Positions 27,817 to 32,870 of a stretch of DNA of 64,000 nt are shown piece by piece. Every line of letters begins with the position of its first letter. The first letter of the stretch is position 1. Origin of the DNA: Segetibacter koreensis DSM 18137 (lineage in GTDB: Bacteria; Bacteroidota; Bacteroidia; Chitinophagales; Chitinophagaceae); the NCBI RefSeq assembly GCF_000374045.1, contig NZ_KB893317.1, positions 62,001 through 126,000 on the forward strand. Reading direction: 5' to 3'. The translations under genes were made by a program, and so were the position numbers. The notes under the pieces were generated by a model. The model had not been told where the DNA came from. It was given only the letters and a program-made list of their open reading frames with translations, and did no database searches.

Positions 27817-27845
27817 TTTGTAAAAAAGATAAAAAAATATTTTTG
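27817..27845 (+). promoter_or_regulatory. Promoter of the pheA attenuator leader
   Basis: TTTG at 27817-27820 and TATTTTTG at 27838-27845 match the Bacteroidota -33/-7 consensus with a 17-base spacer. The leader peptide begins 33 bases later. A second weaker box (TACTTTTA, 27863-27870) is also present. Confidence 0.6.
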
Positions 27846-27878
27846 GTTTAAATTGCAAATCCTACTTTTACTGCTTCG

Positions 27879-27965
27879 ATGAAACAAACAATAGAAAATA
27901 CCTGGTTTAGTTTTTATTTTTATTTCTACTTTAGAAAGTGGACCGGGAAACTTATTGAGATTTAG
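27879..27965 (+). CDS. Aromatic leader peptide of the phe/tyr attenuator
   Basis: A 28-codon frame starting ATG and ending TAG, coding MKQTIENTWFSFYFYFYFRK followed by WTGKLIEI. Ten of the thirteen residues 9-21 are aromatic: five Phe, three Tyr and two Trp. Such a density of regulatory codons just upstream of a terminator and pheA is the hallmark of ribosome-mediated attenuation. The downstream end of the frame (TGGACCGGGAAA) forms one arm of the antiterminator. Not in any frame of the downstream genes. Confidence 0.85.
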   Translation: MKQTIENTWFSFYFYFYFRKWTGKLIEI

Positions 27966-28000
27966 AAATAATAAAAAATCAAAATATAAAATCCCGGCCA
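27939..28000 (+). promoter_or_regulatory. Antiterminator pairing in the pheA leader
   Basis: Bases 27939-27948 (TGGACCGGGA) can pair with 27992-28000 (TCCCGGCCA) in nine pairs with one bulged A. The second segment is the 5' arm of the terminator, so the two structures exclude each other. A ribosome stalled on the Phe/Tyr codons at 27906-27932 would leave the first arm free and favour readthrough. Confidence 0.7.
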
Positions 28001-28019
28001 AAAAAGCCGGGATTTTTTT
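27988..28019 (+). terminator. Leader terminator (attenuator) upstream of pheA
   Basis: An 11-bp perfect stem (AAAATCCCGGC and complement) with a 7-base loop is followed by a run of seven T. It sits 10 bases before the pheA ATG, with no gene ending before it other than the leader peptide. Confidence 0.88.
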
Positions 28020-28029
28020 ATGCAAGAAT

Positions 28030-28902
28030 ATGAATGCAAGTAAAAAAGAAACAAAGGGAGGCTCGTCAAAAAATTTACGGATCGCTATCCAGGGATATGA
28101 AGGAAGTTTTCACCAGGAAGCAGCCCGGAAGTTCTTTGGTAAAAACGTTGAAGTAATTCCATGTGACACTTTTAGAGAGGTAATAAAAATTGCATCAGAT
28201 AAAACACAAAGTGACGGTGCAGTAATGGCTATAGAAAATTCTATTGCAGGAAGCATTCTTCCAAATTATAATCTCTTAAAGAAAAGTAACCTGACGATAG
28301 TAGGGGAGAAGTACCTTCACATTCGTCAACATCTTTTGGTTAATCACGGCATGCAGTTACAAGACATTAAAGAGGTGCATTCTCATCCAATGGCATTATT
28401 GCAATGCATAGATTTTTTAGAACAACATCATACCTGGAAGTTGGTCGAGACAGAAGATACCGCATTGAGCGCAAAATATATTAACCGTCATAAGAGTAAA
28501 CATACAGCTGCAATAGCAAGCAAACTTGCAGCGGAATTATACGATTTGGATATACTTGCGCCTGATATTCATACGTTAAAGAATAATTACACGCGGTTTT
28601 TAATGTTGCAAAGAAAGGAAGAAGCTGTTGCGGTGGAGAATGCAGATAAGGCCTCAGTATATTTTGAAACTGATCACAGCAAAGGTAGCCTTGCTAAAGT
28701 GCTGACTGTGATTGCAGAAAAAGGAGTAAATCTTAGCAAACTGCAAAGCATGCCTATACCTGGCAGCGATTTCTTATATGGTTTTTATGCAGATATGGAA
28801 ATAAAAGATATGGATCATTTTAATGAAGTTTTTGAGGCAACAGATAAGTTAACGGCGCATTTAAAGGTTTTCGGTGCATTTAAGAAAGGAAATTTAAAAT
28901 AA
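28030..28902 (+). CDS. pheA: Prephenate dehydratase
   Basis: A 290-residue monofunctional enzyme: the catalytic PDT domain begins at about residue 17 (RIAIQGYEGSFHQEAARKFF), with AIENSIAGSILPNYNLL and the TRFLML motif preceded by NNY; a C-terminal ACT domain follows (GSLAKVLTVIAEKGVNLSKL). It converts prephenate to phenylpyruvate and is usually feedback-inhibited by Phe through ACT; the usual ESRP is QSMP here. No chorismate mutase domain is present; that activity is on the DAHP synthase fusion 5 kb downstream. ATG 28030 is chosen; the frame opens earlier but across the terminator. Confidence 0.95.
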   Translation: MNASKKETKGGSSKNLRIAIQGYEGSFHQEAARKFFGKNVEVIPCDTFREVIKIASDKTQSDGAVMAIENSIAGSILPNYNLLKKSNLTIVGEKYLHIRQHLLVNHGMQLQDIKEVHSHPMALLQCIDFLEQHHTWKLVETEDTALSAKYINRHKSKHTAAIASKLAAELYDLDILAPDIHTLKNNYTRFLMLQRKEEAVAVENADKASVYFETDHSKGSLAKVLTVIAEKGVNLSKLQSMPIPGSDFLYGFYADMEIKDMDHFNEVFEATDKLTAHLKVFGAFKKGNLK

Positions 28903-28920: not shown

Positions 28921-30075
28921 ATGAATATTACTGTTTCAGAAAGGCTAAATGGAATTGGGGAATATTATTTTTCTACAAAGCTTCGTGAAATTGATAATCT
29001 GAATAAGGAGGGCAAAAAGATAATAAATCTGGGCATCGGAAGTCCTGACTTGCCTCCCCATCCTGATGTTGTAAAAGTACTGCAGGAAGAAGCTGCAAAA
29101 CCTACAACTCATGCTTATCAAAACTACAAGGGTAGTCCTGTTTTGCGAAATGCTATTGCAAGTTTTTATAAAACCTGGTATGGTGTTGATTTAAATGCTG
29201 ATACTGAAATTTTGCCATTAATCGGTAGCAAAGAGGGTATCATGCACATTTGCATGACTTATTTGAATAAAGGTGATGAAGTACTGATTCCCAATCCCGG
29301 TTACCCAACATATAGCAGTGCTGTAAAACTGGCTGGAGGAAAATGCGTAGAATATGATTTGAAGGAAGAAAACAACTGGGAGCCGGATTTTGACGTTTTA
29401 GAAAAAACAGATCTCAGTAAAATAAAAATAATGTGGATCAACTATCCTGAGATGCCTACTGGCAAACAGGCGTCAGTTGAGCTTTTTAAAAAAGTTATAG
29501 CATTTGGCAAAAAACACAATATTCTTATTTGTCATGATAATCCTTATAGCTTTATTTTAAACGACAAGCCGGTAAGCTTATTAAGTGTTGACGGTGCAAA
29601 AGAAGTCGCTATTGAATTAAATTCTCTAAGCAAGGCCAGCAATATGGCAGGATGGAGGGTAGGTATGATGGTTGGCGCCAAAGAGAGAATTGACGAGGTA
29701 TTACGGTTTAAAAGCAATATGGATAGCGGGATGTTTTTACCTGTACAATTAGCTGCTGCAAAAGCCCTAAGCTTAGGCAAAGATTGGTACCAACAGTTAA
29801 ATGCCGAATATGCGGAACGGAGAGAATTGGTATTTAAAATCCTTGACAGGTTAGAGTGTGAGTATGATAAAGGTCAGTCAGGAATGTTTATCTGGGCTAA
29901 AATACCATCAAAATATAAAGACGGCTATCAGCTGAGTGATGAGGTGCTATACAACAAAAATGTTTTTTTGACACCGGGAGGAATTTTCGGTAGCAATGGA
30001 AACAATTACATAAGGGTAAGCTTATGTGCGAAAAAAGATGTTCTTAAAGAAGCATTGGAAAGAATTTTAGCCTGA
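28921..30075 (+). CDS. Class I/II aminotransferase of the aromatic operon
   Basis: A 384-residue PLP enzyme. The PLP lysine lies in SLSKASNMAGWRVG; the substrate-binding part includes INLGIGSPDLPPHP and NPGYPTYSSAV, and the C-terminal Arg is in NYIRVSLCAK. It lies 18 bases after pheA and 28 before tyrA, so it most likely transaminates phenylpyruvate and 4-hydroxyphenylpyruvate to Phe and Tyr. Related sequences are also annotated as LL-diaminopimelate-type aminotransferases; the neighbourhood favours the aromatic role. Confidence 0.9.
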   Translation: MNITVSERLNGIGEYYFSTKLREIDNLNKEGKKIINLGIGSPDLPPHPDVVKVLQEEAAKPTTHAYQNYKGSPVLRNAIASFYKTWYGVDLNADTEILPLIGSKEGIMHICMTYLNKGDEVLIPNPGYPTYSSAVKLAGGKCVEYDLKEENNWEPDFDVLEKTDLSKIKIMWINYPEMPTGKQASVELFKKVIAFGKKHNILICHDNPYSFILNDKPVSLLSVDGAKEVAIELNSLSKASNMAGWRVGMMVGAKERIDEVLRFKSNMDSGMFLPVQLAAAKALSLGKDWYQQLNAEYAERRELVFKILDRLECEYDKGQSGMFIWAKIPSKYKDGYQLSDEVLYNKNVFLTPGGIFGSNGNNYIRVSLCAKKDVLKEALERILA

Positions 30076-30103: not shown

Positions 30104-31027
30104 ATGGAAAAAGAAAATGTTATCGCAGCAGGGGCAATACCTGTTGCAGAAGACGGTAATTTAATATCTGCCAACAAGAAATTGGGAGGCGTTGTCACAA
30201 TTATAGGAACAGGATTAATAGGGGGCTCATTTGCGTTGGTTTTAAAAGACAAAGGTCTTGCTCAAAGAGTAATAGGTGTTGATAAAAATATAGAACACCA
30301 GAAAAAGGCCCTGGAGTTAGGTATCGTTGATGAAATATTGCCAATCGAAGAGGCAATCGCAAAAAGTAAATTGATTGTTCTGGCGGTTCCGGTCGATGCT
30401 TTAGATAAAATATTGCCTGTTGTTTTAGACCAGGTACAAGACCAGGTTGTAATGGATATGGGTTCGACAAAAGAAAACGTCATTGCTTTGGTTGCAAAGC
30501 ATCCAAAAAGAAGGAGATTTGTTGCAAGCCATCCCATGTGGGGAACTGAATATAGCGGTCCTGAAGCTGCTGTAAAAAATGCATTTACAAATAAGGCGGC
30601 TGTTATCTGTGACTCTGAACATTCAGATCCGGATGCGCTGGAGTTGGTAAAAAACTTATATAAACAAACGGGCATGCATCTTATTTATATGGATGCAGCG
30701 GCACACGACCTCCATGCAGCTTACATTAGTCATATTTCTCACATCACATCTTTTGCTTTAGCAAATACGGTTTTAGAAAAGGAGAAGGAAGAAGATGCGA
30801 TATTTGAATTGGCAAGTGCTGGTTTTGAAAGCACCGTACGTCTTGCAAAAAGTAATGCTGCAATGTGGGTGCCTATTTTCAAACAAAACCGTGAAAACGT
30901 ACTGGATGTATTAAATGAACATATTTCTCAGCTCCGGAAATTTAAAAGTTGCCTTGAAAAAGAGAATTATGAATACCTGGAGGAACTGATAGAACATGCA
31001 AACGGAATACGAAAAATACTGAAGTGA
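30104..31027 (+). CDS. tyrA: Prephenate dehydrogenase
   Basis: A 307-residue NAD-dependent enzyme with the Rossmann motif IIGTGLIGGSFAL near residue 33 and the conserved ASHPMWGTEYSGPEAA segment, and DLHAAYISHISHITSFALA in the helical C-terminal domain. It oxidises prephenate to 4-hydroxyphenylpyruvate for tyrosine. It has no mutase domain. It is the third gene behind the leader attenuator; no terminator is obvious before deaD. Confidence 0.94.
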   Translation: MEKENVIAAGAIPVAEDGNLISANKKLGGVVTIIGTGLIGGSFALVLKDKGLAQRVIGVDKNIEHQKKALELGIVDEILPIEEAIAKSKLIVLAVPVDALDKILPVVLDQVQDQVVMDMGSTKENVIALVAKHPKRRRFVASHPMWGTEYSGPEAAVKNAFTNKAAVICDSEHSDPDALELVKNLYKQTGMHLIYMDAAAHDLHAAYISHISHITSFALANTVLEKEKEEDAIFELASAGFESTVRLAKSNAAMWVPIFKQNRENVLDVLNEHISQLRKFKSCLEKENYEYLEELIEHANGIRKILK

Positions 31028-31205: not shown

Positions 31206-32870
31206 ATGATGACATTCGAAGGGTTGGGAATTGACGCGAGGTTAATTCAGGCAACCGATGAGTTGGGGTTTGTGAACCCAACGCCGATACAGGAAAAGGC
31301 AATCCCGGTGCTGCTGAGTGGCACTAAAGACTTTGTAGGATTGGCCCAAACCGGTACCGGAAAAACAGCAGCATTTGGCTTACCCTTATTGCAATTGATT
31401 AATGTAGAAAACAAGTTTCCACAGGCGTTGATTGTTTGTCCTACACGTGAGTTGTGTATGCAGATTGTAAAGGAAATTGAACTTTTTAAAAAACATATAA
31501 GAGGAGTTCATGTAGTTGCGGTGTATGGCGGCGCATCTATCAGTCTTCAGATCAGAGATTTAAAAAGGGGCGTTCAGATTGTTGTTGCAACTCCCGGTCG
31601 TCTTATCGATTTGATCGAGCGTAAGGCGATAGACCTTGAGCAAATACAATATGTAGTGCTTGATGAAGCTGATGAAATGCTAAATATGGGTTTCAGAGAT
31701 GATATTGAATTTATATTAAAGAATACCCCAAAACGTGAAGCCACGTGGTTATTTAGTGCAACGATGCCGCCTGAAGTTAGGCAGGTTAGCAAACGCTACA
31801 TGAAGGAACCGGTTGAGGTAACTGTTGGGCAGGTAAACACTGGTAATGAAAATATTGATCACCAATATTATGTAACCAGTGCTCATAACCGGTATGAGAC
31901 TTTAAAACGAATTATTGATTTTAACCCCGGTATTTACGGTATTGTATTTACGCGCACTAAATTAGATGCGCAGGATATAGCAGAAAAGCTAACCCGTGAA
32001 GGTTACGACATTGATGCTTTGCACGGAGACCTTACCCAGGCTCAACGTGATAAGGTAATGGGGCAGTTTCGGGATAAAACCCTGCAACTGCTTATTGCAA
32101 CAGACGTAGCCGCAAGAGGTATTGATGTGAAGGAAATAAGCCATGTCATTAACTATGAATTGCCTGATGATGTAGAAGTGTACACCCACCGAAGTGGTCG
32201 TACAGGCCGTGCGGGAAACCAGGGAATTTGTGTTTCAATTGTTCATGCAAGAGAAACTTTTAAGTTGCGCCAGATTGAGAAAATGATTAAACAACCTTTT
32301 CACAGGCTGGATATTCCGAGTGGAAAGGATGTTTGCCGCAAACAGTTCTTCTACTTTATGGATAAGCTTTTGCAAACCGATATCAGCCACGGCGATTACG
32401 AAACGTACGTTCCAATGTTGCAGGAGAAATTTGCAGACGTAACAAAGGAAGAAGTTTTGAAAAGAGTTGCTGCAATGGAGTTTGACCGTTTTCTTAAGTA
32501 TTATGACAATGCTGGGGATCTTAACGTTCGTGAGCCAAGAGTAAGAGAAAAAAGTTTCGAGAGAGGTGGTGCAGACCAGGGCCGTTCAAGAGATATGCGC
32601 GGTAGAGAATATTCACATGGTAATGGTGATTTTGCAAGATTATTTGTAAACCTTGGTACGAAGGATGGTTTTTATAAAGCAAGTTTTCTTCAGTTTATTT
32701 TGGATATGAGCGATCTCAAAAAAGAAGCTCTTGGCAGAATTGATATGAAAGAAATGAATAGCTGGGTAGAGGTTGATAAAAATGTTGCCGACAAAATGGT
32801 GCGATCAATAGATGGAAAAACATTTAAAGGCAGAAGGATCAGGATGAATGATGCTAACAGCAGAGGATAG
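31206..32870 (+). CDS. deaD: DEAD-box ATP-dependent RNA helicase
   Basis: A 554-residue helicase with Q motif (FVNPTPIQEKAIP), motif I AQTGTGKT, PTRELCMQ, DEAD in VLDEADEML, FSATMP and HRSGRTGRAG. A C-terminal DbpA-type RNA-binding RRM-like domain is suggested by FARLFVNLGTKDGFYKASFL at about 475-550. It would remodel ribosomal or structured RNA, as CsdA/DeaD proteins do in cold or ribosome assembly. It interrupts the aro gene array, with its own -7 box. ATG 31209 is an alternative start. Confidence 0.95.
   Translation: MMTFEGLGIDARLIQATDELGFVNPTPIQEKAIPVLLSGTKDFVGLAQTGTGKTAAFGLPLLQLINVENKFPQALIVCPTRELCMQIVKEIELFKKHIRGVHVVAVYGGASISLQIRDLKRGVQIVVATPGRLIDLIERKAIDLEQIQYVVLDEADEMLNMGFRDDIEFILKNTPKREATWLFSATMPPEVRQVSKRYMKEPVEVTVGQVNTGNENIDHQYYVTSAHNRYETLKRIIDFNPGIYGIVFTRTKLDAQDIAEKLTREGYDIDALHGDLTQAQRDKVMGQFRDKTLQLLIATDVAARGIDVKEISHVINYELPDDVEVYTHRSGRTGRAGNQGICVSIVHARETFKLRQIEKMIKQPFHRLDIPSGKDVCRKQFFYFMDKLLQTDISHGDYETYVPMLQEKFADVTKEEVLKRVAAMEFDRFLKYYDNAGDLNVREPRVREKSFERGGADQGRSRDMRGREYSHGNGDFARLFVNLGTKDGFYKASFLQFILDMSDLKKEALGRIDMKEMNSWVEVDKNVADKMVRSIDGKTFKGRRIRMNDANSRG

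Follow-up and report, generated by a model that had tools for sequence, protein, structure and literature searches.

Upstream of pheA, the prephenate dehydratase gene of Segetibacter koreensis, lies a leader which is in all probability a ribosome-mediated transcription attenuator sensing charged tRNA-Phe and tRNA-Tyr. Its short frame is rich in Phe and Tyr codons that are kept by selection, its position upstream of pheA is conserved among relatives, and its alternately pairing RNA arms co-vary. The window is the whole stretch of 64,000 nucleotides analysed from this organism's own genome (G000:C4:62001-126000), and all positions are given in window numbering (Table 1).

The leader frame encodes the peptide MKQTIENTWFSFYFYFYFRKWTGKLIEI, in which a stretch of 13 codons holds five Phe, three Tyr and two Trp. 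The predicted terminator has a stem of 11 pairs (27988-27998 with 28006-28016), a loop of 7 nt and seven T at 28013-28019, and a gap of 10 nt separates the T run from the pheA ATG. Arms 2 and 3 form a competing helix of nine pairs (27939-27948 with 27992-28000) with one bulged A at 27942. Frame, terminator and competing helix had all been described in a first-pass annotation of this DNA and are confirmed here base for base. The MFE fold contains the terminator together with a pairing of arm 1 (27901-27909 and 27911-27916) to arm 2 (27939-27947) and to the bases on its 5' side (27932-27937). The fold has a z-score of -3.34, with 3 of 200 shuffles being equally stable.

The aminotransferase gene begins 18 nt behind pheA, and tyrA follows 28 nt further on. 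Behind tyrA, the gene order is a DEAD-box-helicase-like gene (31206-32870, assigned by its sequence), DAHP synthase-chorismate mutase, aroB and aroA, all on the same strand. Compared with its congeners, the window carries an extra A at about 27948-27949, right behind the CCGGG of arm 2. This base shifts the leader frame to an earlier stop, so that the C-terminus of the peptide is altered while the RNA arms are retained.

Table 1. Features of the pheA leader and the genes behind it (window numbering)
Feature	Position	Strand	Basis and remarks
Alternative upstream promoter, presumably that of the first-pass annotation	27817..27845	+	Sequence; TTTG 27817-27820, TATTTTTG 27838-27845
Candidate -33 element TTTG of the conserved promoter	27842..27845	+	Putative, from sequence; TTTG or TTG similarly placed in most aligned relatives; overlaps the 27838-27845 box
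Conserved -7 box TACTTTTA (consensus TAnnTTTG)	27863..27870	+	Position conserved in congeners; last base A, not G
Leader peptide frame, 28 codons and TAG	27879..27965	+	Sequence and comparison; ATG 27879-27881, TAG 27963-27965, Phe/Tyr run 27906-27932
Arm 1, partner of arm 2; predicted to lie under a ribosome that stalls near the start of the Phe/Tyr run	27901..27916	+	MFE fold and 1:2 swap test, 56 loci
Arm 2, antiterminator 5' arm; alternative partner of arm 1	27939..27948	+	Swap tests
Arm 3, antiterminator 3' arm; overlaps the terminator 5' arm	27992..28000	+	Swap tests
Intrinsic terminator (predicted)	27988..28019	+	Sequence; hairpin survey of 142 leaders
pheA, prephenate dehydratase	28030..28902	+	NCBIfam NF008865, 207.5 bits, under the cut-off of 219; start chosen, ATG 28030
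Aminotransferase	28921..30075	+	
tyrA, prephenate dehydrogenase	30104..31027	+	NF006307, 375.5 bits, above the cut-off

Spread of the leader and its codon content

The close-relative set was obtained by a search of genome contigs and comprises the best 80 of 103 relatives, mostly Chitinophagaceae. A leader stands upstream of pheA in 79 of these 80 homologous loci: a short frame, no more than about 450 nt from the gene, in which a stretch of 12 codons includes 6-10 aromatic ones. The single locus lacking the leader peptide (L047) ends at a contig edge and has only about 180 nt of upstream sequence. A terminator was detected by a simple rule in 75 of the 79 leader loci, mostly on CCCGG and 13-41 nt past the leader stop; by this rule, none was found at L010, L022, L023 and L031.

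The phylum was surveyed by searching 392 genomes, 337 of which had a pheA relative; the upstream regions were read in 126 of the 337 (a first batch of 109 and a second of 17). At least seven aromatic codons in 12 were present upstream of pheA in 61 of 109 genomes; scanned on the reverse strand, the same regions yielded 3 of 109. Within the same class, the leader was found in 55 of 70 genomes (55/59 in the first batch, 0/11 in the second), and outside the class in 6 of 50 genomes of the first batch and 6 of 56 overall. By family, the same-class counts were 12/12 in f1, 5/5 in f2, 7/7 in f3, 20/20 in f5 (probably Flavobacteriaceae), 3/7 in f8, 3/3 in f9, 4/4 in f11 and 1/1 in f12. The 17 genomes of the second batch showed no leader: seven from f4, which may be read as Bacteroidales, three from f10, one further f8 and six from outside the class. 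The ten f4 and f10 genomes (L201, L203-L211) belong to the same class, perhaps to Bacteroidales, and their lack of an aromatic pheA leader may reflect loss or another mode of control. The two collections of genomes have members in common, as L273-L276 match L001-L004 over the aligned stretch, and the loci are therefore not independent species.

Attenuators of the trp/pheA type are characterized by a short frame rich in codons for the product, located just upstream of the biosynthetic gene; the sequence provides such a frame here, its translation being predicted. They also have an intrinsic terminator between leader and gene, and a predicted one, defined as a hairpin more stable than -8 kcal/mol that is followed by a T-rich tail, occurs in 128 of 142 leaders. 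The codon and stall counts given below leave out L047, L202 (odd length) and the spurious frames of L181, L183 and L188.

Among the 142 leaders, 85 different aromatic cores can be told apart, and these contain 416 Phe, 302 Tyr and 17 Trp codons. The remaining 133 core codons include one Val and not a single Leu, Ile, His or Asp. Every one of the 142 leaders, and likewise every one of the 85 distinct cores, has two or more Phe and two or more Tyr codons, while their order varies among cores. Because aromatic density was the criterion by which frames were picked, it is in part built into the result. This does not apply to the share of Tyr, nor to the scarcity of Leu, Ile and Val, whose codons can differ from those of Phe in a single base. 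The joint sensing of Phe and Tyr that the first-pass annotation had suggested is upheld by the presence of both codons in all leaders, and we consider it probable from the codon content.

The most serious competitor is the same attenuator sensing Phe alone, with Tyr codons as neutral filler one base from Phe codons. This is unlikely, even though pheA is the first gene and UUU differs from UAU in a single base. The constancy of Tyr in the leaders argues against filler, and so do the proportions: Tyr accounts for 302 of the 718 Phe and Tyr codons in the 85 cores, whereas Leu, Ile and Val, which can likewise be reached from Phe by one base change, together account for a single codon. Furthermore, in 29 of 33 genomes a co-directional tyrA is found no more than about 2.6 kb behind pheA. 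The exceptions are the four f3 genomes; that their leaders retain Tyr codons despite the distant tyrA counts against the simplest operon logic and is in line with Phe being sensed alone. Sensing of Trp was rejected: a Trp codon occurs in 73 of the 142 leaders and is thus not conserved, and the Trp codon within the antiterminator arm, pointed out in the first-pass annotation, is replaced by Arg in L001.

The variety of the cores also bears on whether the leader acts through its peptide, as an arrest peptide or a free one, instead of sensing tRNA charging. Some genera do hold one peptide nearly constant (the MKAN... leaders), but the 85 distinct cores with their variable order, together with a window peptide whose C-terminus departs from that of its congeners through one extra base beside arm 2 with the pairing arms intact, make such a role very improbable.

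Pairing of the arms and proposed course of the switch

Co-variation of the arms was assessed by a swap test on 56 non-redundant loci, with duplicates and loci lacking a terminator below -8 kcal/mol left out. The set includes L188, with its spurious frame, and the doubtful L143; of the 79 close-relative leader loci, seven entered and six were used. The 3' part of the leader paired with its own terminator arm (2:3) at a mean of -15.6 kcal/mol, compared to -10.2 kcal/mol for swapped arms, a difference reached in 0 of 20000 permutations. Swaps confined within families gave -12.7 kcal/mol, again with 0 of 20000. Two families tested singly, f1 (19 loci) and f5 (15 loci), each yielded 0 of 5000; in small families the 2:3 co-variation was not significant, with p of 0.098 in f3 (7 loci), 0.16 in f2 (3 loci) and 1.0 in f8 (3 loci). 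In only 15 of 56 loci did no foreign arm 3 pair better than the own one, since arms of related loci resemble each other. The 56 loci contain 43 distinct arm-3 cores, among them cores with CCTCCGG (L083, L088), AATCCTGAT (L099-L101) and GTCTCGA (L126), each of these examples being matched by its own arm 2. Pairing 1:2 behaves in the same way (own -11.9 and swapped -9.1 kcal/mol, 0 of 20000 permutations, 56 loci). The mutually exclusive 1:2, 2:3 and 3:4 pairing typical of trp/pheA attenuators is thus maintained by co-variation, and with the conserved position of the leader this bears out the pheL-type attenuation proposed in the first-pass annotation. Between the last aromatic codon and the 2:3 helix lie 10 nt in the median (from -2 to 30), close to the stretch of about 12 nt which a ribosome is stated to cover downstream (PMC4833913).

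The proposed course of events is as follows. RNA polymerase would start about 4 nt upstream of the leader AUG, and a ribosome would enter the leader nearly at the 5' end of the transcript. When Phe or Tyr is short, the ribosome would stall within the Phe/Tyr run and cover arm 1. Arm 2, beginning about 10 nt past the last aromatic codon in a typical leader, would then be free to pair with arm 3 as it emerges, so that terminator pairing 3:4 would come too late and pheA, the aminotransferase gene and tyrA would be transcribed. With ample Phe and Tyr, the ribosome would reach the stop codon, 1:2 would re-form behind it and 3:4 would terminate transcription at about 28019.

Fold calculations on 128 leaders agree in part with this order of events. 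When the RNA ended with arm 3 and the ribosome occupied the first, second or third Phe/Tyr codon, 127 of 128 leaders were predicted to form 2:3 (mean above 0.5). With the ribosome at the stop codon, 3:4 exceeded 0.9 in 125 of 128, as it did in 120 of 128 naked RNAs. In the finished RNA at equilibrium, the terminator was still favoured under an early stall (mean P34 of 0.84 over the 128 leaders, 0.99 in the window); relative to naked finished RNA, and counting changes above 0.05, early stalling lowered P34 in 43 of 128 leaders and raised it in 1 of 128. The decision of the switch must therefore be kinetic. The stand-alone energies in the window are near each other, at -17.7 for 2:3 with its inner extension and about -16 for the terminator hairpin.

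The stall run on the window assumed a longer 5' end, with the transcript starting at 27853 and the leader at 27880, one base downstream of its true start; the run on 128 leaders took the frame from the sequence itself. In the window, 2:3 reached 0.65, 0.71 and 0.49 with stalls at F10, F12 and F14, and 0.00 with stalls at F16 and F18. Late stalls are thus not predicted to antiterminate, and the outcome depends on the start site.

A terminator with an antiterminator is by itself compatible with other attenuators, so that a translation-independent device of the protein-binding or riboswitch type with a fortuitous frame has to be weighed, and the equilibrium folds favouring termination would suit it. 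Against this speak the wealth of Phe and Tyr codons, the distance between the last aromatic codon and arm 2, and the absence of any Rfam match at the gathering score in the window; such a device is likewise very improbable. The Phe/Tyr run alone is unremarkable, since a 7-codon Phe/Tyr pattern has 20 matches genome-wide and its reversed control 19. Only one of the 20, the pheA leader, has both a short ATG frame and, no more than 160 nt away, a strong terminator; the other 19 have no strong terminator in that distance, and no second Phe/Tyr leader was found in the genome by this pattern. Chance AT-rich sequence, suggested by the nearly equal numbers of runs and control matches, has a negligible probability given this single combination and a conserved leader with co-varying arms. 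The comparison with homologous pheA regions proposed in the first-pass annotation, with the Phe/Tyr leader nearly universal in the close-relative set and its paired stems co-varying, likewise rules out coincidence.

Promoter and predicted transcript start

The first-pass annotation had placed the promoter at what is presumably the upstream pair in Table 1. In part this stands: the upstream box TATTTTTG matches the consensus better than TACTTTTA. However, no TAnnTTTG is present at the place of the upstream box in L001, L003 and L004, L002 having one 35 nt upstream of its ATG, and the conserved box is the downstream one; the TTTG of the upstream box is well placed as a -33 element for TACTTTTA. 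The -7 box is probably that at 27863-27870, with a predicted start at about 27875, about 4 nt upstream of the leader AUG. Transcripts from either predicted start contain the whole leader.

In Flavobacterium psychrophilum, the TAnnTTTG box is reported to span -12 to -5 (PMC9723704). A TAnnTTT[GA] box starting 11-19 nt before the in-frame leader ATG occurs in 80 of 92 leaders of f1, the family to which this genome belongs (72 with strict G), the commonest distance being 15 nt. The same spacing was found in 3 of 5 f2 leaders, compared to 3 of 43 long ATG frames of the window used as controls, and in 0 of the 45 other leaders tested (0/20 in f5). The box lies farther upstream elsewhere, at 25-30 nt in f3 and 35-41 nt in f11. 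A box at -12 to -5, combined with its spacing from the ATG, leads to predicted 5' ends of about 0-7 nt in f1. For the Segetibacter koreensis genome itself, a near-leaderless start is at best slightly more likely than not. Short 5' ends are rare in the phylum: leaderless transcripts are given as 5.5% in F. psychrophilum (PMC9723704), and 5' ends under 10 nt as about 3.7% in Bacteroides thetaiotaomicron (PMC7366714).

A wider proposal, which we hold to be evenly balanced, is that amino-acid attenuators of Chitinophagaceae use leaderless or near-leaderless transcripts. The -7 box would lie mostly 12-16 nt before the AUG, and the ribosome would load on the bare 5' end right behind RNA polymerase without a Shine-Dalgarno sequence, with a joint signal for pheA-tyrA given by either Phe or Tyr being scarce. 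If true, tight coupling of transcription and translation at transcript starts would be ancestral in much of the class.

Related leaders and known systems

Leader-like frames also precede other biosynthetic genes of this genome. Upstream of hisG (L222, G000:C13 at about 118.2 kb) lies the frame MKIDLHNHHHHFLL. A short ATG frame with at least four His in 12 codons was present, by raw count, in 16 of 16 relatives (L213-L228). In 15 of the 16 there is a hairpin at least as stable as -12.6 kcal/mol that is followed by a T-rich tail, and in 8 of 16 the -7 box ends 4 nt before the in-frame ATG, so that a leaderless transcript is predicted. Upstream of trpE (L290, G000:C3 at about 32.0 kb) lies MKTINLNNNWWHSISLPG. 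Frames with two or three adjacent Trp codons were found in 9 of 12 trpE loci (L281-L292), and not in L283, L286 and L288; in one locus the reverse strand, serving as control, had as many as 3 Trp within 10 codons. Taken together with the pheA leader, the hisG and trpE frames make it probable that this genome uses attenuation as a general mode of control. No consistent pattern of leaders emerged before ilvD (13 loci scanned) or before aspartokinase-homoserine dehydrogenase-like genes (15 loci). Short Thr/Ile-rich frames upstream of the latter in L306 (MSATTTITITTP), L310 and L315 could be thr leaders.

Attenuation by leader peptides is textbook knowledge for Proteobacteria. To the knowledge of the authors of a 2010 survey, none had been shown outside Proteobacteria and Actinobacteria before that survey added Firmicutes (PMC2965389). 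A conserved Phe/Tyr attenuator in much of the class, not reliant on Shine-Dalgarno starts, would offer a genetically simple test of ribosome-polymerase coupling in Bacteroidota, and would bear on how ribosomes start on near-leaderless messages there. It would also allow the control of aromatic operons to be annotated in many genomes, and it constitutes a candidate RNA family.

The closest known system is the pheA leader of Escherichia coli (pheL; Rfam RF01859, Phe_leader), which likewise has a leader with Phe codons, alternating arms and a terminator before pheA. RF01859 matches the segment with 38.4 bits (E 3.5e-5) over model positions 1-125 of 125, the top among the 37 matches listed, but this is below the gathering score of 55. 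The leader would thus work like pheL without being a member of that family as Rfam draws it. The E. coli leader is not known to contain Tyr and has a Shine-Dalgarno start, whereas here each leader has at least two Tyr codons (mean of 3.6 per distinct core), and the promoter before the window's leader is of the TAnnTTTG type with a predicted near-leaderless start. Among nine pheA loci tested, no leader matched an Rfam family at the gathering score; the one match, Flavo-1 in L099, was elsewhere in the locus.

Within the phylum, a conserved and unexplained 5' element upstream of pheA was reported for F. psychrophilum, shared with other Flavobacteriaceae and with no Rfam hit, along with strong clues for leader-peptide attenuation before amino-acid operons (PMC9723704). 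It concerns the same gene in the same phylum, and f5 has the Phe/Tyr leader in all 20 of its surveyed genomes; the passages on it differ from the present account in giving no peptide, arms, Tyr signal or spread past Flavobacteriaceae. RF01692 (Bacteroid-trp) is entered in Rfam as 'Bacteroidete tryptophan peptide leader RNA', and the motif appears in a table of PMC2864571. It too is a leader-peptide RNA of an aromatic amino acid operon in Bacteroidota, but for Trp and another gene. Of 99 genomes, 8 contain RF01692 (6 of these above the cut-off), and all 8 belong to f5; the model had no match in the window at its gathering score of 49 bits and none in the S. koreensis genome at E 0.001 under stricter filters. 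In Sinorhizobium meliloti, trpL is described as a leaderless attenuator with a transcript beginning at the leader ATG (PMC7298713). It differs from the pheA leader in responding to Trp instead of Phe and Tyr, and in having a reported 5' end where that of the pheA leader is predicted.

Among the matches listed in the open-licence literature, no description of a Phe/Tyr leader or of a leaderless attenuator in Bacteroidota was found. A comparative paper of 2004 by Vitreschak and colleagues is said to mention Bacteroidetes/Chlorobi in its abstract, so that the idea of attenuation in the phylum may be older than PMC9723704 and RF01692. The first-pass annotation knew of no such attenuator in this phylum. 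This holds only in part, in view of RF01692 and of the leader-peptide clues and pheA element in those passages on F. psychrophilum. At present, the pheA/trp-type mechanism, the Flavobacterium pheA 5' element with its leader-peptide clues and the trp leader of Bacteroidota in Rfam are already known. What the comparison of sequences appears to add is the class-wide spread, the dual Phe/Tyr coding, the co-varying arms and the predicted near-leaderless start.
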